Source: an uncultured Lachnospiraceae bacterium | GTDB taxonomy: Bacteria > Bacillota > Clostridia > Lachnospirales > Lachnospiraceae | DNA: 64,000 bases | Direction: 5' to 3' | Assembly: GCA_905233955.1 (NCBI GenBank) | Contig: CAJOFQ010000004.1 | Coordinates: 38,417-102,416, forward strand | Part shown: one piece after another, positions 5,196 through 55,176 of the stretch | Layout of the letters: each line of letters begins with the position of its first letter | Numbering within the stretch: the first letter of the stretch is position 1 | Made by a program: the position numbers and the translations under genes | Notes under the pieces: generated by a model | What the model was told of the DNA's origin: nothing | What the model saw: only the letters and a program-made list of their open reading frames with translations | Database searches by the model: none

Positions 5196-8025
5196 CTTTT
5201 TAGATAGAATAAAAGAATATTTACTGGGATCCAGAATAACGGCTTTGTCCTTTGTGATAACTGCTTTTTCCATGATACTCGTGGGGCGATTATTTGTGCT
5301 GCAAATAGTTCGTGGCGAGGATTATCAGAATCATTATGATCTGTTGGTGGAGAAAACCGAGAATATAGATGCCACCAGAGGCAGTATCTATGACCGCAAT
5401 GGAATCTGTCTTGCCAGCAATGAGCTTGCGTTTGCTGTTACCATTGAGGATAGCGGCACCTATCAAAGCGATTCTGATAAGAACAAAGCTTTATCGGAGA
5501 TTCTGTACGAGGTGATCTCTCACATTCAGAATAATGGCGATGAGATAGATAAGGATTTTGGGATTTTTATTAATTCCTCAGGTGAATATGAGTTTGTGGA
5601 TTCAGGAACTTCTTTACAGAGGTTTCGCGCTGATATATTCGGGCATGCCAAGATCAGCCAGCTTGAATACAATACCCGTCTTAAGCTCAATGAAGCCAAA
5701 GCAAGTGCTGATGATATAATGGAGTACCTTACTGATAAGCGCTTTGGGATACCGAAAAAGTATCCAAAAGAGATGAGGTACGCGATTGCGGTCATCCGTT
5801 ATAACATGAATAAAAACTACTATCAAAAATATATCGCCACTACTATTGCTTCTAATGTAAGCAATAAGACTGTGGCCTATATCAAGGAGAACCAGAACGA
5901 GCTTACAGGTGTAGACATAGAAGAAAAATCAGTCAGAACTTACGCCGACAGCGAAGCATTTTCCAGTATTATTGGTTATACAGGAACTATCTCAACAGAC
6001 GAATATAATGAACTGTCCAAGGATGATGACACATATACCCTGAACGATACCATCGGCAAGGCAGGAATTGAGCAGTACATGAACAAATACCTGCGGGGGA
6101 AAAAGGGTTCCCAGACGGTGTATGTAGACAGTGTAGGCAACCTTATCGAGACGACTGATCATACGGATCCTGTCACAGGCAAGGATGTATATCTGTCCAT
6201 AGATGCCAGCCTTCAAAAAAGGGTATACAGTCTCCTGGAGAAGGAAATCGCCGGTATACTCCTGCAGAAGATAGTCAACGCCAAAACCACAGCTAAAACT
6301 GCCAAAGCATCTGATATTACCATTCCTGTTTATGATGTCTATTATGCGCTGGTGGGCAACAGTGTAATTGACATCAGACATTTTACCGAACCTGATGCGA
6401 CGGAGCTTGAGAAGCAGGTACAGGCGGCATTTGATGGCAAAAAACAGGTCGTCATGGACACTTTAGGGTCTATGCTTACTTCACAGGAGCCGGTTATATA
6501 TAAGGATTTATCTGAGGAATATCAGGCTTATTCTACATACATTGTAAAAAAGCTCAAGGACGAAGATGTAATTTTAAGGGATCAGATAGATACCGATGAC
6601 GAGATCCAGAAAAAGTGGACCTCTGAAGAAGCAAGCGTTAATGAATACATCAGGTACTGTATCGAGCAGGACTGGGTGGATATAACTGCCTTTACCGAGC
6701 AGTCTGAATATGTCGACACTGACGAGCTTTACAATAATCTTGCAGCCTATATTATCGACAGATTCAGCAATGACAATGGATTTGACAAATTAATCTACAA
6801 GAATGCCATTTTGGAGGATCTGGTTCGCGGTAATCAGCTCTGTGCGATAATGTTTGACCAGGGAGTTCTGGAATGGGACGAAGAGACCAGGAACGCCCTT
6901 GCAGATGGCAGAAGAGGTGCATATGACTTCATAAGAAGCTGTATATCCTCCCGTTCTATTACGCCGGGACAGTTGGCGTTGGAGCCTTGTTCAGGTTCAT
7001 GTGTGATGATAGACACTAAGACGGGAGAGCTTCTGGCCTGTGTAACATATCCCGGCTATGACAGTAATCTTTTATCTAATGCCAGAGATTCGTCATATTA
7101 TGTGTCACTTAATACTAATTTATCTAATCCTCTTTATAACAATGCTACCCAGCAGAGGACGGCCCCGGGATCTACATTTAAGATGTGCTCGGCTATGGCC
7201 GGGTTATCCGAAAGGGTGATTACTACCGCAACCCAGATTGTGGATTTAGGGGAATATGACAAGGTCTCTAACCATCCAAAATGCTGGATATATCCGTCAT
7301 CACACGGTTCGCTTAATGTTGCCGAAGCCATACAGCATTCCTGCAACTACTTTTTTTACGAGGTGGGCTTCAGGCTTGCAGGCGGAGGCGGATATAATGA
7401 TGCCAGGGGCATATCCAGATTGCAGAAGTACGCCAATCTCTTAGGACTTGATCAGAAGACCGGAATAGAGATTGAGGAGAATACATCCTCCATAGCTACG
7501 GAATATCCGGTAATGGCTGCAATAGGCCAGTCTAATAACAATATTACCACCATTGCTCTGGCAAGATATGTTACGGCAATAGCATCCAGTGGAACGGTGT
7601 ATAAATTATCGCTTTTGGATCATGTTCAGAATGCCAAGGGTAAAACCGTCAAAGAATACGGTCCCAAGGTCAAGACCAACATCGGTATACTAAATGCCGG
7701 TGAGTGGGGTGCTATTCACTCAGGAATGCGCTCTGTGGCAGAGGATCTTAGCAGTTTTAACAATTTCTCTGTAGAGGTTGCAGGCAAAACAGGAACCGCC
7801 GAGGTTAATAACCATCCAAACCACGCATTGTTTGTAGGATACGCGCCCTACGACAATCCCAGAGTGGCTCTTGCTACCAGGATAGCATTTGGTTACACAT
7901 CTCACAATGCAGCGGATATATCAAGACATTTTCTGGGAGTGTATTTTGGAGATGAGGCATCCATAGAATATGCTGATTCGGATGAGACCAGAGGCGTGAC
8001 TACAAGCGGTTCGGTAACAGATTAA
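5188..8025 (+). CDS. mrdA: Elongasome transpeptidase PBP2, long form with inserted linker
   Basis: A class B penicillin-binding protein that cross-links sidewall peptidoglycan with RodA. It starts at TTG 5188, overlapping mreD; GGGGTC/GAGAG lies just upstream. There is one membrane anchor (about 17-40), then a pedestal domain with ATRGSIYDRNG. Transpeptidase motifs are SxxK (STFK, Ser about 662), SxN (SCN, about 718) and KTG (KTGTAEV, about 867). At 945 residues it exceeds the usual 600-720. The excess is an acidic stretch of about 240-260 residues between DVYLSIDASLQK (about 332) and VMIDTKTGELLA (about 605), normally a few dozen residues. SpoVD/FtsI is less likely given the mre-rodA context. 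Confidence 0.93.
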   Translation: MADFLDRIKEYLLGSRITALSFVITAFSMILVGRLFVLQIVRGEDYQNHYDLLVEKTENIDATRGSIYDRNGICLASNELAFAVTIEDSGTYQSDSDKNKALSEILYEVISHIQNNGDEIDKDFGIFINSSGEYEFVDSGTSLQRFRADIFGHAKISQLEYNTRLKLNEAKASADDIMEYLTDKRFGIPKKYPKEMRYAIAVIRYNMNKNYYQKYIATTIASNVSNKTVAYIKENQNELTGVDIEEKSVRTYADSEAFSSIIGYTGTISTDEYNELSKDDDTYTLNDTIGKAGIEQYMNKYLRGKKGSQTVYVDSVGNLIETTDHTDPVTGKDVYLSIDASLQKRVYSLLEKEIAGILLQKIVNAKTTAKTAKASDITIPVYDVYYALVGNSVIDIRHFTEPDATELEKQVQAAFDGKKQVVMDTLGSMLTSQEPVIYKDLSEEYQAYSTYIVKKLKDEDVILRDQIDTDDEIQKKWTSEEASVNEYIRYCIEQDWVDITAFTEQSEYVDTDELYNNLAAYIIDRFSNDNGFDKLIYKNAILEDLVRGNQLCAIMFDQGVLEWDEETRNALADGRRGAYDFIRSCISSRSITPGQLALEPCSGSCVMIDTKTGELLACVTYPGYDSNLLSNARDSSYYVSLNTNLSNPLYNNATQQRTAPGSTFKMCSAMAGLSERVITTATQIVDLGEYDKVSNHPKCWIYPSSHGSLNVAEAIQHSCNYFFYEVGFRLAGGGGYNDARGISRLQKYANLLGLDQKTGIEIEENTSSIATEYPVMAAIGQSNNNITTIALARYVTAIASSGTVYKLSLLDHVQNAKGKTVKEYGPKVKTNIGILNAGEWGAIHSGMRSVAEDLSSFNNFSVEVAGKTGTAEVNNHPNHALFVGYAPYDNPRVALATRIAFGYTSHNAADISRHFLGVYFGDEASIEYADSDETRGVTTSGSVTD

Positions 8026-8057
8026 AGCCGTTATGTTCCAGATAGAAGGAGCGGTAT

Positions 8058-8759
8058 ATGATAGATGCATGTACGATCAAGAGCAATTCTTATGGTCTTA
8101 CACTTGTTTTGAGCCAGGAGGCGGATTTCGAGACTATGATCCGGGAGGTCTGTGCAAAGTTTGCGGAGGCCAAGCATTTTTTTGGTAAGACCGATCTCAT
8201 ACTAAGAGTGGAGGGCAGAGAGCTTACAGGCCAGCAAATGGCTGTCCTGGCTGAAGCAATTGAGCTGAATTCCATGATACATATTATCCTGATAGACGAG
8301 AAAGATGAACTTAAGGATGTCAGGATGGCAGAGAGGAAAGACCGGTTTTATTTTGAAGAGTATTACAAGAACGCCAAGATCATCCCTTCAACAGTAAAAA
8401 AGGACGAGACAGTTGAATCGGATGGAAGCATTTTGATACTTGGTGATGTCAAGAAGAATTCTACTGTGACCGCCAGAGGCAATGTGGTGGTTTGCGGCGA
8501 AGTGTGCGGTAATGTACACGCAGGCTGTGAAGGAGAAAAAGGATGTTTCGTTGTAGCTAATTCCTTCAAGAGTGCTAAGGTACAAATTGCGGATATCAGC
8601 GGCGATTTTACCAGCGGAAAAAGAAAGCTTTTCAGTCGCAGCAGTCAGTTCGAACCTTATGCCGTTGTTTTATGGGAGGGAGTTCTCCTGCATGAACCGT
8701 TGTCCAATGGAATAGTAAAACAGGTGGTAAATCGCGAAGATGATCAGCACATTTCGTAA
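8058..8759 (+). CDS. minC: Septum-site inhibitor MinC homologue, degenerate MinD-binding motif
   Basis: MinC blocks FtsZ assembly and is normally brought to the membrane by MinD. The 233 residues contain an N-terminal FtsZ-binding-like domain (1-110) and a C-terminal beta-helix recognisable from SILILGDVKKNSTVTARGNV and CGEVCGNVHAGCEG. The RSGQ motif that precedes this helix in standard MinC and contacts MinD is replaced by ESDGS. minD and minE, which usually follow in Clostridia, are missing: rodA starts inside the end of this gene (20-base overlap). GAAGGAG precedes the ATG. See findings. Confidence 0.85.
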   Translation: MIDACTIKSNSYGLTLVLSQEADFETMIREVCAKFAEAKHFFGKTDLILRVEGRELTGQQMAVLAEAIELNSMIHIILIDEKDELKDVRMAERKDRFYFEEYYKNAKIIPSTVKKDETVESDGSILILGDVKKNSTVTARGNVVVCGEVCGNVHAGCEGEKGCFVVANSFKSAKVQIADISGDFTSGKRKLFSRSSQFEPYAVVLWEGVLLHEPLSNGIVKQVVNREDDQHIS

Positions 8760-9891
8760 TTACAAACTTAAAAACTACAATTTGCTTTTGATAGGAGCCG
8801 TATTTGGGCTTACTATGATAGGTATCTTTGTCATTGGAAGCGCGAATGAAAGCTATTTTAACCGCCAGATACTGGGAATGGTTATTGGGCTTATTGTGAT
8901 GGTTATTGTATCGCTGATAGATTTTGAGTTTGTCCTTCAGTTTCATTATTTATATTACGCGCTGACTTTGGTAATACTGTTTCTTCCGCTGATCTTTGGA
9001 GATGAAGGAAGGCTTGGGGGAAGAAGATGGATTGATCTGGGGTTTATCAGATTCCAGCCATCTGAGCTGGCCAAGGTTTTGCTGGTATTGTTTTTTGCCA
9101 AATTTTTTATGATTTATCAGGAGCATATCAATAAAAAGCACATGCTTTTTCTGATTGCTGTTTTGGCGGCAATACCTCTGCTACTTATTTTAAAGGAGCC
9201 CGATCTTTCCACGACTATAGTTACTTTTTTGATTGTTTCTGCCATGGTCTTTACGGCGGGATTGTCATATAAGATTGTGGGATGGGTTTTAGGCCTTTCG
9301 ATTCCTGCGGTAAGTATATTTTTATTTCTTGTCAGCCGGGACGGGCAGACGATACTGAAGCCGTATCAGGGACGAAGAATCCTTGCATGGCTTCATCCGG
9401 AAGATTATCCTTCAGATGCGTACCAGCAGATGAATTCCATAATGGCTGTTGGCTCAGGACAGTTATTCGGCAAAGGTCTCTACAATGATGCGGCTGATTC
9501 TGTAAAAAATGGTAATTATATATCCGAGCCGCAGACAGATTTTATTTTTGCTGTGGCAGGAGAAGAGCTGGGATTTGTCGGATCCTTCATTATAGTTTTG
9601 CTGCTCCTTATAATATCATTAGAGTGCTTGAAAATGGCAAGGCACGCCAGGGATCTTTCAGGCCAGCTTATCTGTGTTGGAATGGCGTCTCTGATAGGAT
9701 TTCAGAGCTTTGTAAATATATGTGTTGTAACAGGTATGATGCCTAATACCGGTTTGCCGCTTCCGTTTGTAAGCTACGGTCTTACATCACTTGTTACGCT
9801 GTATTTAGGGATAGGTTTTGTCCTCAATGTGGGGTTGCAGGCAAAAAAACGCTATTCAGGGGGAAATGTTGAAATAGATTGGGGGGAATAA
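8740..9891 (+). CDS. rodA: SEDS peptidoglycan glycosyltransferase RodA
   Basis: A 383-residue polytopic membrane enzyme that polymerises lipid II glycan strands for sidewall growth with PBP2. The family signatures are RRWIDLGFIRFQPSELAKV, EPDLSTT, FAVAGEELGFVGS and GMMPNTGLPLPFVSYG. About ten membrane segments are evident. It could be FtsW, but pairing with mreBCD and PBP2 makes RodA the better call. It overlaps minC by 20 bases and is followed with no gap by mgsA. Confidence 0.93.
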   Translation: MISTFRNYKLKNYNLLLIGAVFGLTMIGIFVIGSANESYFNRQILGMVIGLIVMVIVSLIDFEFVLQFHYLYYALTLVILFLPLIFGDEGRLGGRRWIDLGFIRFQPSELAKVLLVLFFAKFFMIYQEHINKKHMLFLIAVLAAIPLLLILKEPDLSTTIVTFLIVSAMVFTAGLSYKIVGWVLGLSIPAVSIFLFLVSRDGQTILKPYQGRRILAWLHPEDYPSDAYQQMNSIMAVGSGQLFGKGLYNDAADSVKNGNYISEPQTDFIFAVAGEELGFVGSFIIVLLLLIISLECLKMARHARDLSGQLICVGMASLIGFQSFVNICVVTGMMPNTGLPLPFVSYGLTSLVTLYLGIGFVLNVGLQAKKRYSGGNVEIDWGE

Positions 9892-22907: not shown

Positions 22908-23099
22908 ATGGATAACAGCTATTTTGTGGCGGAAATAATGAAGGGAAGGCGTAGAAAAGCGTTACTTATCGAACTTGAAGGACGGGAAACTATTGAAGAG
23001 GTAGTTAAGCGTAATTATGGGGAAGATACCGTGGTAGTTCAATACAGAGTACCTACCATGGAAGAGATGATTCTTATGAAGCGGGGGATGATAACTTGA
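22908..23099 (+). CDS. Small conserved-looking protein coupled to the GGDEF/EAL gene
   Basis: A 63-residue hydrophilic protein with a basic N-terminal part (MKGRRRKALLIELEG) and an amphipathic C-terminus. I do not recognise a family. ATG 22908 follows AAGGTGGG at a normal distance and is preferred to GTG 22899. Its TGA overlaps the TTG start of the 1183-residue signalling gene (TTGA), so the two are probably translationally coupled. A role with that protein is inference from the overlap. Confidence 0.65.
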   Translation: MDNSYFVAEIMKGRRRKALLIELEGRETIEEVVKRNYGEDTVVVQYRVPTMEEMILMKRGMIT

Positions 23100-26000
23100 G
23101 AAAAAAAGATCCTATGACGGGTCTTATGACTAAGGATGCTTTTATCGAAAGCGCCAGGCTGCGCCTTGAGTCCGGGGAGGTCTGTGCTGATGATTTATCC
23201 TGTGTCTACTTTGATATTAAGGCCTTTAAGCTTTTTTATGCAAGGAATAATTTTGATAGAGGGTATGAGTGCTTGTCATCAATTGGACATATGATCGAGG
23301 ATGTCTTTAAGGGGGATGATATCTGCAGATCGTCTAATGATCACTTTATAGTGCTTACAAGCCGCGAAGGGCTTTCCCAGCGCGTTCTTTTGGTGCAGGA
23401 AAAGGTTCATAACGAATGGAAGCATACAGGTCTTGAGCTGACAGCCGGAAGCTATGAGCTTAAAGACGGATATACTGATATGGCGACTGTGTGCAGTAAT
23501 GCCAAAATGGCATGCAAGAGCGCTGAAAAAAATGGTGATGGTTTCTCCGTATATGATGGTGCTCTTGAAAGGTCCATACGGTTAAAACAATATGTGATAC
23601 ATCACTTTGATGAAGCGATAGATTGTGGTCATATCATAGTCTATTATCAGCCGATCATGCATGTTTTAAAACAGCGGTTATGCGGTTATGAAGCCCTTGC
23701 AAGGTGGAATTCACCCGAGTATGGAATCCTTATGCCTGAAGATTTTCTGGACACCCTGAAGGAGGCTAAACAGGTTCATCGTCTGGATGCATACATGATC
23801 AGAATGGTTTGCAAGGATCTAAGGCTTTCTACTGACGAGGGGCTTTCTGTGGTTCCGGTATCGCTGAATCTTTCCAGACAGGATTTTGTCATGTCGGATA
23901 TGCTGGAGGTTGTAAAGCGCGCAACAGATGAATTTGGAATAGATAAGCAATATCTCCGTTTTGAGCTTTCAGAAGGAATGCTCTCTGAGGACAGGGAGGA
24001 TATGCTGTCTGAGATGCGTCGCTTCCGCAAGGCAGGATACATGCTTGGGATGGATGATTTTGGTGGAAAGGCATCTTCACTTCATATTCTCAAGGATATG
24101 CCTTTTGATTCATTAAAGATTGACAGCAGCTTCGTTAAGGGAACAGATGACCCGATCAGATCCAGGATCATATTGAAGAATATGATGAATATGGCCAAGG
24201 AATTGGGCATAGAGACCATGATGAGCGGCATAGATGATGAAAGCATAGTAGATTTCATCAAGCAGATAGGCTGTGAAAAATTCCAGGGCAATCTGTATGG
24301 AAGCCCCATGACTCTCGACAAGGATAAGCATATTAGCCTGGATCCTGAAAATGATTTTGAAAGGGATTATTATGATGCTATAGGACGGGTTAATATCCTT
24401 TCTCAAACACCCCTCAAGACAGGGTGGTCTCATCAGGAAGAGGATGCTGCTATTTTAAATCTGCTTCCTCTTGCAATTATGGAATTTGACAGGAAATCAT
24501 TTAATTTTCTCATGTCAAATGACAATTTCAAGTCAATTTTTTCGTCATTTGGAATGGATGGCGACGACGATCCGCAAAGTATATTTAATAACACAAGACT
24601 TACCATGTCCACACAGTTCAGGTCTTTGGCGGAGCGCTGTATTTATACGGGCACTGAATGTGTTCAGGATTTTGTGACGGATGCGGGCTATCACAGGTTA
24701 GTAATGCGCTGTGTATCCTACAATGGTGAAAATGACAGCGGAGCTGTTCTAGCTATTGTCGAGCGAATGTCTGAGGATGATCCTAACGAACGCGCGTCAA
24801 AAATGGACAACGCCATGCGATTCTTGTATTCACTTTATTCCAGGGTGGATTTAATAAGCGCGGATGGCAGCTCTATGGATAATATCTATATAGATACATC
24901 CAGATATAATAATCCGATATTAGGCAGAGATGCTAATGAGACAATTTTAAAATTCACTCAACAGAATATCTATGTTGAGGATATGCAAAAATGTCTCGAT
25001 TTTCTGAATCTTAATACCATGGAAGACCGCCTTGCGGATGTAGGCGGCAGATATATGGTGGATTATTTCAGAACCAGGGATGCAAAGGGCAACTACGACT
25101 GGCTGATGTACATGATAGTGCCGGTTGTGTCAGATAAAAAGACAATTTATGTATTGTGCTCAAGAGGTATTGATGCTGAGAGAATGCGCAGGTTGCCTGA
25201 GATTTCCCAGAGTGGCGCTGAGTATTATGATATGCCGAGCAATCCTGTATATCTCATTCTTGCCAGCAGTGCTTTTACCAGGATGCTGGAGTACGGTTCA
25301 TTTGATGAATTTTTGCGTAATTCATTCTTTGTAGAGGGAGATCTTACTTCTAATCTTATTTTAAGCCTGCATTTAGGCAAGCAGCAGGTTATGGACGATT
25401 CCAACATGGGGCATATGGGCATACCCTACGATGAAGTGATAAGGGAGATGATCACAGGTTCCGCAGTAGAATCCGACAAAGATAAGGTCAAGCCCTTCTT
25501 TGACAGAGACAGGTTATTGTCAGCTTATAAGGATGGACAGATAAGTTCTAATATTGAGTATCTCAGACTGCCTGACAGCGGAAGTGAGCATCCCAGATAT
25601 ATGAATGCCAGCTATCAGATACGGGAGGCATCTGACGGGCATATTCATATCTATATTTTGACCTTTGATGTGGATGATTACAGACGGACTAATGAGACCA
25701 TTCACAGGCTGGCTGAGAGGGATACTTTAACAGGGCTTTATAACCGCAGCACATCAGGAGCGATGTTCGATGGAATTCTTAATGATGAAACCACCGAAAC
25801 GGCTGCACTTATTATTCTTGACCTGGATAATTTCAAACAGATCAACGACAGGTACGGCCATGATTGCGGCGATAAGATATTAAAGGATGCTTCGTCCAGA
25901 ATGTCCGAGCTGTTTGACAGATTCGGATATGTGGCAAGAATAGGCGGAGATGAGTTTTTAGCAGTAGTAAAGAATCTTTCCGGTGAATATATTGATGAGA

Positions 26001-26647
26001 TTCTGCAGGGCTTTACCAATGAGACAAAGCTTGTAGACTACCACGGTAAATCTATAGTTTATACCATGTCAATAGGTTATGCTCTGTTTCCGGGGCATGG
26101 AGAAGAATACAATACTTTGTATCAGAGGGCTGATATGGCTCTTTACGCTGTCAAGATGCATGGACGCAATTCCTACAGATGCTTTGCCGAGGGTATGGAG
26201 AATCTGAACCGCTCCCAGCTTGGCTTTAATAAGAACTCTATATCAGAAGAAATGCCGGGAGGCTTTTTGGTATACAGAAACAACGATAACCTGGACATTG
26301 TTTTTGCCAATCAGCGGCTTATCAACATTTTTGGGTGCAGGACAATGGAGGAATTCAGGCTCTTTACAGGAAACAGTTTCAGAGGCTGTGTCTATGAAGA
26401 GGACTGGAAATTTATCCAGGAATGCATAGACCGTCAGGTCAATGAGTATGACGGCTACGATTATGTTCAATACAGAGCCAGGACAAAAGACGGCAAGATA
26501 AAATATATCGAAGACTATGGCAGATTATACCATGCAGAGAACGGTGAAGAGCTGTTTTATGTATTTATGCTGGATCTGGAGGAGAAGGAACGGAATTACG
26601 GTCATGTCATAGAACAATTTGGAATGATCCGATCCAAGGGTTTATGA
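23096..26647 (+). CDS. Multidomain GGDEF-EAL-GGDEF-PAS cyclic-di-GMP signalling protein
   Basis: 1183 residues, no membrane helices seen. The N-terminal GGDEF-like domain (1-160) is degenerate (SSNDHF replaces GGDEF). The EAL domain (165-410) keeps EAL (about 199), LNLSRQ, FELSE, MDDFGG and LKIDSS, but the AEGVE segment with the general-base Glu reads MSGID, so hydrolysis is doubtful. A long sensory region (PAS-like) spans 450-850. A second GGDEF domain follows (LTGLYNRS about 877, intact GGDEF about 950). Its inhibitory RxxD site reads RFGY, so product inhibition may be lost. A PAS domain ends the protein (1060-1175). Start TTG 23096 overlaps the small upstream gene. Confidence 0.9.
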   Translation: MRKKDPMTGLMTKDAFIESARLRLESGEVCADDLSCVYFDIKAFKLFYARNNFDRGYECLSSIGHMIEDVFKGDDICRSSNDHFIVLTSREGLSQRVLLVQEKVHNEWKHTGLELTAGSYELKDGYTDMATVCSNAKMACKSAEKNGDGFSVYDGALERSIRLKQYVIHHFDEAIDCGHIIVYYQPIMHVLKQRLCGYEALARWNSPEYGILMPEDFLDTLKEAKQVHRLDAYMIRMVCKDLRLSTDEGLSVVPVSLNLSRQDFVMSDMLEVVKRATDEFGIDKQYLRFELSEGMLSEDREDMLSEMRRFRKAGYMLGMDDFGGKASSLHILKDMPFDSLKIDSSFVKGTDDPIRSRIILKNMMNMAKELGIETMMSGIDDESIVDFIKQIGCEKFQGNLYGSPMTLDKDKHISLDPENDFERDYYDAIGRVNILSQTPLKTGWSHQEEDAAILNLLPLAIMEFDRKSFNFLMSNDNFKSIFSSFGMDGDDDPQSIFNNTRLTMSTQFRSLAERCIYTGTECVQDFVTDAGYHRLVMRCVSYNGENDSGAVLAIVERMSEDDPNERASKMDNAMRFLYSLYSRVDLISADGSSMDNIYIDTSRYNNPILGRDANETILKFTQQNIYVEDMQKCLDFLNLNTMEDRLADVGGRYMVDYFRTRDAKGNYDWLMYMIVPVVSDKKTIYVLCSRGIDAERMRRLPEISQSGAEYYDMPSNPVYLILASSAFTRMLEYGSFDEFLRNSFFVEGDLTSNLILSLHLGKQQVMDDSNMGHMGIPYDEVIREMITGSAVESDKDKVKPFFDRDRLLSAYKDGQISSNIEYLRLPDSGSEHPRYMNASYQIREASDGHIHIYILTFDVDDYRRTNETIHRLAERDTLTGLYNRSTSGAMFDGILNDETTETAALIILDLDNFKQINDRYGHDCGDKILKDASSRMSELFDRFGYVARIGGDEFLAVVKNLSGEYIDEILQGFTNETKLVDYHGKSIVYTMSIGYALFPGHGEEYNTLYQRADMALYAVKMHGRNSYRCFAEGMENLNRSQLGFNKNSISEEMPGGFLVYRNNDNLDIVFANQRLINIFGCRTMEEFRLFTGNSFRGCVYEEDWKFIQECIDRQVNEYDGYDYVQYRARTKDGKIKYIEDYGRLYHAENGEELFYVFMLDLEEKERNYGHVIEQFGMIRSKGL

Positions 26648-53796: not shown

Positions 53797-53829
53797 AAAA
53801 AGGTCATGCCATCCGGCATGACCTTTTCT
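53797..53829. terminator. Bidirectional terminator between thrC and the signalling pair
   Basis: AAAAAGGTCATGCC pairs with GGCATGACCTTTT around ATCC. T-runs occur on both strands, serving thrC on the plus strand and the MshEN/CheX-like gene on the minus strand. Confidence 0.92.
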
Positions 53830-53853: not shown

Positions 53854-54735
53854 TCACATAGTCAATAACAAATATATAGTCCCGAAAGGATAGATCACAG
53901 GAATAACAAACGAATCGTCTGTAAGCTCCAAAACCGGTCCCTCTTCCTGAACAGGAGGATCAAGCGTCAATTCCTCAGAATACATATTGGACATGTTAAC
54001 TGAGAAAAGGCCATTGTGAAGATTGAGGAAATCCTCCAAAGAGGCCTCTACATATTCGTCGAATTCCGTAAAATCCATCTTGGCATAACGCGAAGCAAAA
54101 GCAATTGCTATCTCTTCGGTCATGTCCAGACTGGATGTGCAGTTAATAGGACCTGATATACGCTGTGTAACGCAGCAATTGATGTCATACTGCTTGCACG
54201 CGACAGGAGCAAGAGGAGTGAAATCCTCACCGATAAAGCGTATCAGATTGTTGAACACAAGATTCATATACATGAGCTCGTATTCAGAAATTTCCTTGCC
54301 GGCATCCTTGAAGAAGGATGTTAAAAGACGGCTGGTTGTTTCGGCAGTCTCATTAGATACAGAATCCTCGTTGAGCTGGCTCTCGTTCTGGTAGCCCACC
54401 ATAAGCTCCTCCAGCTCGCTGTTGGAGATACATCCCATATCAACCAGAGTCTGTCCCAACAGTAGATAATCAGGAATCTGCGTCTTAACTAATTCATCAA
54501 GCTGCTCGTCAAACAGATAATTGCGCTCGAGAGCTATTTCTCCGAAGCGTTTGTCCTCCCTGGTCTGCAGAAAACAAACCTCATCCACTTCTGCTGCTGT
54601 CATATATCCCATATGCATGGCCAAAGTCCCGAGCTTTATATGCGTATCGGCAAGCATACTGATAGCGGCTATCAAGTCGTTAGGTGCGACGGCATCGTGA
54701 TTTAGCAGATAGCTGCCAAAAAACTGTGCAAACAT
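53854..54735 (-). CDS. Tandem MshEN-type c-di-GMP-binding repeats fused to a CheX-like domain
   Basis: 293 residues. The N-terminus holds four 24-residue motifs at an exact 29-residue period (Gly 7, 36, 65, 94; Leu/Val 21, 50, 79, 108), for example KLGTLAMHMGYMTAAEVDEV and RFGEIALERNYLFDEQLDEL. This is the motif-spacer-motif layout of MshEN c-di-GMP receptor domains, here two in tandem. Residues 135-293 resemble the CheX/CheC phosphatase fold (EASLEDFLNLHNGLFSVNMS). Four bases separate it from the upstream CheY-like gene. I infer a c-di-GMP-responsive phosphatase or adaptor for that receiver. Confidence 0.75.
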   Translation of the reverse strand: MFAQFFGSYLLNHDAVAPNDLIAAISMLADTHIKLGTLAMHMGYMTAAEVDEVCFLQTREDKRFGEIALERNYLFDEQLDELVKTQIPDYLLLGQTLVDMGCISNSELEELMVGYQNESQLNEDSVSNETAETTSRLLTSFFKDAGKEISEYELMYMNLVFNNLIRFIGEDFTPLAPVACKQYDINCCVTQRISGPINCTSSLDMTEEIAIAFASRYAKMDFTEFDEYVEASLEDFLNLHNGLFSVNMSNMYSEELTLDPPVQEEGPVLELTDDSFVIPVIYPFGTIYLLLTM

Positions 54736-54738
54736 AGA

Positions 54739-55116
54739 TCATCTTCCCCCTAAATGCGATTCTAATACACTCTCAACCTGTGACGGATTCATCGGCTTCT
54801 GGATGAAGTCCCTGGCTCCGGCTTCGATAGCAGCTTTGAGCTGCATTTTGGTTCCAACAGACGAAACTATTATTATATCAGCCTTGTCATCAATAGCAAT
54901 GATGCCCTTGGTGGCTTCTATTCCATCTTTTTTAGGCATGACAATATCCAAAAACACCATGTCCGGATGAGTCTCCTGATACAGATCAATGGCCTCCTGT
55001 CCATTGGAAGCCTCAACAAAAGTAACATCCGGAGAATGTCTTAGAATTACATCTTTTAATTGTTTTCTGGCCAGAATGGAATCGTCACTGACCAAAATCG
55101 TGAGAGTATCAGACAT
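54739..55116 (-). CDS. Stand-alone CheY-like response regulator
   Basis: 125 residues, a single receiver domain. Acidic pocket SDDS (11-12), phosphoacceptor Asp57 in VFLDIVMPKKDG, switch Ser in IIVSSVG (85-86) and Lys107 in FIQKPM are all present. No output domain, so it acts by protein contact. AAAGGGG precedes the ATG. It is cotranscribed with the MshEN/CheX-like gene; no histidine kinase is encoded nearby. Confidence 0.93.
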   Translation of the reverse strand: MSDTLTILVSDDSILARKQLKDVILRHSPDVTFVEASNGQEAIDLYQETHPDMVFLDIVMPKKDGIEATKGIIAIDDKADIIIVSSVGTKMQLKAAIEAGARDFIQKPMNPSQVESVLESHLGGR

Positions 55117-55147: not shown

Positions 55148-55176
55148 ATATTACACTAAGTAAATGAAATAATCAA
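55148..55176 (-). promoter_or_regulatory. Predicted sigma-A promoter of the CheY-like/MshEN pair
   Basis: On the minus strand: TTGATT, 17-bp spacer, TAATAT, 32 bases before the start of the receiver gene. Confidence 0.5.

Follow-up and report, generated by a model that had tools for sequence, protein, structure and literature searches.

A two-gene unit on the minus strand of the window (the whole stretch of DNA analysed, 64,000 nucleotides) encodes a stand-alone CheY-type receiver and a 293-amino-acid (aa) partner protein that joins an array of MshEN motifs to a CheX-like domain. The preliminary description had already proposed this architecture, which is upheld by the predicted folds and by the near-constant pairing of the two genes. 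The module occurs widely in gut and rumen Clostridia. We propose that the partner is a phosphatase of the paired receiver that is controlled by c-di-GMP and operates on the CheA pathway, a reading that we consider roughly evenly balanced. The broader form of this proposal, that in a module spread across the Clostridia the rate at which a dedicated CheY is dephosphorylated is set directly by c-di-GMP, which is thereby wired into the CheA pathway at the receiver, is put forward tentatively.

Organization of the locus

The ORF check placed the receiver gene first and the partner gene second on the minus strand (Table 1). The stop codon of the former (54739-54741) and the ATG of the latter (54735) are separated by 3 bases, which corrects the gap of 4 bases given earlier. 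A SigA-like site equivalent to that in the window lies 5' of the receiver gene in 18/20 homologous loci tested; no SigD-like (flagellar) site was found in the 20 upstream regions tested, so SigD control of the unit was rejected. Downstream, the unit is followed by a hairpin that it has in common with the convergent threonine synthase gene; this hairpin, called from the plus strand, has a T-run on both strands by inspection. Control of the unit by a c-di-GMP riboswitch was rejected as well because the window contains no Rfam match anywhere.

In most loci, the neighbouring genes are housekeeping genes rather than chemotaxis genes, and the neighbours encoding threonine synthase and citrate synthase are lineage-specific. 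The possibility that the pair belongs to a larger operon conserved in the window's clade was rejected given that, across the Clostridia, only the pair recurs. Judged by gene context (housekeeping neighbours and a SigA-like promoter only), the unit does not qualify as a component of flagellar chemotaxis, although it co-occurs strongly with CheA and, in L118, lies in one operon with a CheA-like kinase gene.

Table 1. Features of the two-gene unit and its flanks (window positions)
Feature	Position	Strand	Details
Receiver gene	54739..55116	-	stand-alone CheY-type, 125 aa; Pfam Response_reg 1.9e-23
Phospho-acceptor D57 codon	54946..54948	-	invariant 71/71
Partner gene	53854..54735	-	293 aa: four MshEN motifs, linker, CheX-like domain
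MshEN motif 1, residues 5-28	54652..54723	-	G7 conserved; no Arg/Lys, no Gln; predicted structural repeat
MshEN motif 2, residues 34-57	54565..54636	-	half of predicted c-di-GMP site: K34, L35, G36, V50, Q57
MshEN motif 3, residues 63-86	54478..54549	-	other half of predicted site: R63, F64, G65, L79, Q86
MshEN motif 4, residues 92-115	54391..54462	-	no Arg/Lys, Tyr replaces Gln; predicted structural repeat
CheX-like domain, about residues 150-292	53860..54288	-	Foldseek to CheX structures
D235-x-x-N238, counterpart of CheX ExxN dyad	54022..54033	-	profile alignment to Borrelia CheX
Promoter-like site TTGATT-N17-TAATAT	55148..55176	-	5' of receiver gene; SigA-like
Terminator-like hairpin	53798..53827	.	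between unit and convergent threonine synthase gene

Pairing, gene order and fusion

The presence of a receiver gene next to the homologues of the partner had been set beforehand as a test of the module, and the outcome was clear: the receiver lies directly upstream in 74/74 homologous loci from public genomes (45-85% identity). In more distant relatives, from the Lachnospiraceae and other Clostridia, the receiver is found downstream of the partner, and in six genomes, both are encoded by one ORF of 432-467 aa. The 67-row set for the wider Clostridia comprises 35 receiver-first, 22 receiver-second, 6 fused and 4 lone partners, so that 63/67 tree rows are paired or fused. On the quick tree of these 67 rows, the four-state arrangement requires 7 changes, with the fused state on two separate branches. 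The natural MshEN-CheX-receiver fusions (L079-L084, six Lachnospiraceae genomes) would make useful single-chain test proteins.

Receivers with the window arrangement form one clade (support 100/99), and the canonical CheY of the window's genome groups beside the window-type receivers rather than the downstream-type ones (95/83). There are hints, in an alignment whose 125 columns cannot prove it, that the partner may have been recruited more than once.

The CheX-like domain

The AlphaFold2 model of the full-length 293-aa protein (pLDDT 90, pTM 0.81) has a CheX fold in its C-terminal half: 13 CheX or CheX-like chains head the Foldseek list, and the matches to the CheX structures 3hm4, 1squ and 3hzh reach E-values down to 6e-9, with TM-scores by target of 0.72-0.78. 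The family profile A2 matches Borrelia CheX (3hzh_B) with an E-value of 0.0064. Because the window protein scores 20.9 bits, below the Pfam CheX gathering threshold of 27 bits, we class the domain, by fold and homology, as CheX-like rather than CheX. The relatives L079, L086, L087 and L119 exceed the Pfam cut-off, and together with the predicted fold they bear out the original assignment of a CheX/CheC-like domain.

Residue by residue, the family profile aligns D235 with E96, which we take to be the number of the dyad Glu in Borrelia CheX, and N238 with N99. The latter is the catalytic Asn of that enzyme (PMC3035606). Both D235 and N238 are present in each of the 74 window-clade sequences that cover them (74/74), down to 45% identity, and N238 is also invariant in the diverse 24-row alignment. 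Hence, in the window's clade, the Asn of the ExxN dyad is kept and the Glu is replaced by an invariant Asp; outside this clade, nearly all relatives have the full ExxN, often within a complete DxxxExxN signature. At position 231, the window protein has Ala where canonical relatives have Asp. On the tree, two changes between Glu and Asp at the dyad acid are sufficient, one in the window's clade and one in L131. The L131 protein (L131:4886-5824, minus strand), with its independent Glu-to-Asp change, is from genome G062, in which neither CheA nor FliM/FliN was found.

The acid of the dyad is required in the characterised CheZ and CheC/CheX/FliY enzymes (PMC3035606), so with Asp in place of the required Glu, the activity of the window's clade may be weak or lost. 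The domain could then act as a coincidence detector that binds the phospho-receiver without catalysis, the complex being an effector for which c-di-GMP and the phospho-receiver are both required. The Asp fixed in the window's clade and the Ala at position 231 would fit such a detector. However, the invariance of D235 and N238 down to 45% identity implies that the dyad is apparently still in use, and an Asp serves as the acid in CheZ and in HisKA_3 kinases, albeit with a different spacing to the amide (PMC3510030). We therefore regard the non-catalytic detector as unlikely. The strict conservation of the two residues suggests that the window's clade is still catalytic, and phosphatase activity of its CheX-like domain is likely, though not certain.

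The receiver and the CheA pathway

The receiver is of the CheY type: the acidic pair D11 and D12, the phospho-acceptor D57, the switch S85 and K107 are invariant in 71/71 rows, and the phospho-acceptor Asp is present in all receivers inspected, including the fused and swapped ones. Its nearest solved structure is Thermotoga CheY (1tmy, 5.6e-25). Since the closest structures are CheYs of Thermotoga, a species with CheX and CheC, the receiver resembles a CheX/CheC substrate. It shares 41% identity and the same active site with the canonical CheY-type protein of the same genome (G000 C40:4090-4422), which is encoded beside a FliM/FliN-family (FliY-like) gene; the module receivers of the window arrangement form a clade of their own. 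In the receiver-first units inspected, the residue that follows the Ser/Thr switch (residue 86, window 54859-54861) is Ser; receiver-second units, fused units and canonical CheY have Ala at this place, a difference that may bear on phosphatase recognition.

The module is present in 68/200 Lachnospiraceae genomes. It is strongly associated with CheA (66/68 genomes with the module vs 37/132 without it; odds ratio 85), and among 392 Clostridia, CheA occurs in 23/23 genomes with a full-length match vs 135/369 others; these co-occurrence figures are uncorrected for phylogeny and inflated by shared ancestry, so that the association is partly phylogenetic. Genome G316, with a PilB-like partial match, was left out of the Clostridia count. 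For FliM/FliN in the Lachnospiraceae, the corresponding numbers are 62/68 and 40/132 (odds ratio 24). Five Lachnospiraceae genomes encode CheA and lack FliM/FliN, and four of these (4/5) carry the module; all four have a T2SSE-family ATPase match, strong and PilB-sized in three of them and on a contig edge in the fourth.

In L118, the partner and receiver genes are followed by a gene for a CBS-Hpt-HATPase kinase, the ATPase domain of which matches CheA models. This CheA-like protein (L118:2615-4549, minus strand) has an N-terminal CBS-like region, Hpt and HATPase domains and apparently no CheW-like domain, and is a candidate for the dedicated kinase of the pair. In L119 (6255-9942), a transposase-like ORF (7615-9072, minus strand) breaks this kinase gene in two. 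In the sister genome G155 (L132; same genus, 93% complete), the pair is present and neither CheA nor FliM/FliN was found, which could reflect either an assembly gap or a recent loss of motility.

The genome of the window encodes CheA and, in addition to the unit, has a CheX-family match of the CheC-like kind close to CheA and one of the FliY-like kind within the flagellar cluster. Given that a canonical CheY, CheA and a CheC-like match are already in place, the unit represents an extra CheY with a putative phosphatase of its own. The wiring could, in principle, be reversed, such that the receiver would be the input to the CheX domain, which would act in turn on the canonical CheY of the flagellar switch; the receiver occupies the place of a regulatory domain in the fused forms, and the position of the canonical CheY gene beside the FliY-like gene would also fit. 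Nevertheless, we find this quite unlikely: the CheX-family proteins already encoded in the genome, the retention of the module in genomes without FliM/FliN and the resemblance of the receiver to a CheX/CheC substrate all argue against it.

The MshEN array

The N-terminal half of the partner consists of four MshEN motifs of 24+5 residues. At lag 29, the profile similarity averages 0.55, compared to -0.87 (sd 0.18) in shuffles, and none of the 5000 shuffles reaches this value; lag 58 is as high as lag 29, and no other lag from 8 to 60 comes near either. The window sequence alone also exceeds all 5000 shuffles. The exact 29-residue period noticed at the outset is therefore real, and the glycines at residues 7, 36, 65 and 94 are conserved and located as claimed, G94 of motif 4 being lost in distant relatives. 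The NCBIfam model NF053729 (c-di-GMP-binding domain, MshE-related) matches the window protein at 51 bits (cut-off 38) and all family members tested (50/50), and the N-terminal profile matches the solved structures of Thermus PilF (2e-7) and MshE (0.002).

Because the whole-chain fold search returned the CheX half only, the N-terminus was folded separately. The resulting AlphaFold2 model (pLDDT 89.5) has the four-helix MshEN_N fold, and its top PDB match in Foldseek is 5htl, MshE with c-di-GMP, with an rmsd of 0.9 A for 52 columns and a probability of 0.99. The E-value of this match is only 1.0, as the domain is short and all-helical, and we take the match as support rather than proof by itself; with it, the MshEN fold, prediction of which had been set beforehand as a test, was recovered. 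Two sub-threshold matches overlap this region. The Pfam Fumarase C-terminus, found in 50/50 members, was rejected, its likeness to these helical hairpins being put down to chance, since MshEN accounts for the period, for the contact residues and for the fold; the other match, to DUF4388, overlaps the MshEN repeats.

The preliminary description had proposed tandem MshEN c-di-GMP receptors. The motifs stand, but two receptors do not: judged against the crystal-structure contacts in PMC5013675, the contact residues are retained only in the central pair of motifs, so a single site is predicted. In motifs 2 and 3, the Lys/Arg, Gly and Gln are present in 99-100% of 75 sequences (G36, Q57, K/R34, F64, G65 and Q86, 75/75 each; R/K63, 74/75), and G36, Q57, F64, G65 and Q86 are invariant in the diverse 24-sequence alignment, down to 22% identity. 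In motifs 1 and 4, the Lys/Arg is found in 0% and the Gln in 0-3% of the 75 sequences; a binding arrangement of two MshEN domains (1+2 and 3+4) was rejected accordingly. In the AlphaFold models, the first helix is short in motifs 2 (35-41) and 3 (64-70) and long in motifs 1 (2-12) and 4 (89-99), and helix 2-12 is unbroken in both the full-length and the N-terminal models; an unbroken, long first helix is reported to clash with the ligand (PMC5013675).

Motifs 2 and 3 conform to the two-motif MshEN form, (R/K)LG...LxxxLxxQ with a 5-residue spacer, with deviations in the predicted site at V50, C54 and N72, of which V50 and C54 take the place of the two Leu residues stacking on guanine 1. The published relaxed MshEN pattern misses the window sequence and matches 40/75 family members and 6/20000 shuffles of the window protein. 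A Lys in the first motif position, which the window protein has, permits very high affinity for c-di-GMP, and binding is abolished when both Gln residues are changed (PMC11731258). Altogether, the residue patterns predict one c-di-GMP site, built by motifs 2 and 3 and flanked by two degenerate motifs.

In L085, L092 and L098, the MshEN contact residues are lost and the CheX residues are retained, so that c-di-GMP control is not indispensable; in L093, the MshEN array is absent altogether, leaving only the CheX half and the receiver. Three of these four are still paired with a receiver. We read these patterns as evidence that the CheX-receiver pair is the core of the module and c-di-GMP sensing a dispensable layer. 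L085 (1009-1923, minus strand), closely related to the window's clade, has other residues at the MshEN contacts (S34, P36, C57, D63, R65, E86); it keeps the CheX dyad and the receiver and is a natural candidate for a c-di-GMP-blind variant. That the array is, in general, only a structural or protein-docking platform of an ordinary CheX/CheY pair, without c-di-GMP binding, as these four loci and the non-binding MshEN homologue XpsE (PMC5013675) might indicate, is very unlikely, since the Gly, Arg/Lys and Gln lost in XpsE are kept in the window protein and in nearly all its relatives.

Proposed mode of action

Under the reading that we favour, a c-di-GMP-controlled phosphatase of the paired receiver, the two genes would form one signalling unit. 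The receiver would take up its phosphate on D57, with the chemosensory kinase CheA as the most likely donor, and the CheX-like domain of the partner would bind the phospho-receiver and dephosphorylate it; N238 would position the water for attack, and D235 would pair with K107 of the receiver. Binding of c-di-GMP at the site formed by motifs 2 and 3 might alter how active the CheX domain is or how it is oriented, such that the cellular level of c-di-GMP would set the lifetime of receiver phosphorylation. The output of the receiver could be a motility machine (the flagellum or, in flagella-less species, a type IV pilus), or else the receiver might serve as a phosphate sink for CheA.

Links between c-di-GMP and chemotaxis are known mainly via motors, receptors and pili. 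If the proposal is correct, c-di-GMP enters the CheA pathway at the receiver and not through the motor, the receptor or gene expression, and a sensor-bearing phosphatase tied to its receiver, whether through gene order or through fusion, would form a minimal and testable hub of two systems. The natural variants, with Glu or Asp in the dyad, with MshEN lost or with the receiver fused, make the mechanism directly testable. Among the Lachnospiraceae of gut and rumen, in which the module occurs widely, protein effectors of c-di-GMP are little described.

Relation to known systems

The MshEN domain of Vibrio cholerae MshE and the GSPII domains of Thermus PilF likewise consist of two 24-residue motifs with a 5-residue spacer and Gly/Gln contacts (PMC5013675; PMC11731258). 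The predicted N-terminal fold lies within 0.9 A of MshE with c-di-GMP, and the high-affinity GSPII-B of PilF shares the Lys at motif position 1. Unlike these proteins, the window protein has four motifs in exact register, of which only the middle pair is complete, and lacks both the ATPase and the alpha/beta MshEN_C subdomain before the output domain. With CheX/CheC/FliY (Borrelia CheX 3hzh, Thermotoga CheX 1squ), it shares the fold, the dyad Asn, a Pro ~22 residues later and a CheY-type partner; it differs in the Asp for Glu of the window's clade, in the fused N-terminal sensor array and in its location beside a dedicated second CheY, away from chemotaxis genes.

The combination of MshEN and CheX in one protein was named in 2016 (PMC5013675, Supplementary Table 4); the main text of that paper mentions neither a pairing with a receiver nor a fusion, an association with CheA or a function for it. 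The conserved pair, the fusion and the link to CheA appear to be undescribed in the open-licence literature.

As for the ligand, the genome of the window contains 16 GGDEF matches, and c-di-GMP is therefore available. The large GGDEF/EAL protein mentioned in the preliminary description is indeed encoded in the window (23096-26647, plus strand); this 1183-aa protein contains EAL, two GGDEF stretches and PAS, and the order in which EAL precedes GGDEF is unusual.
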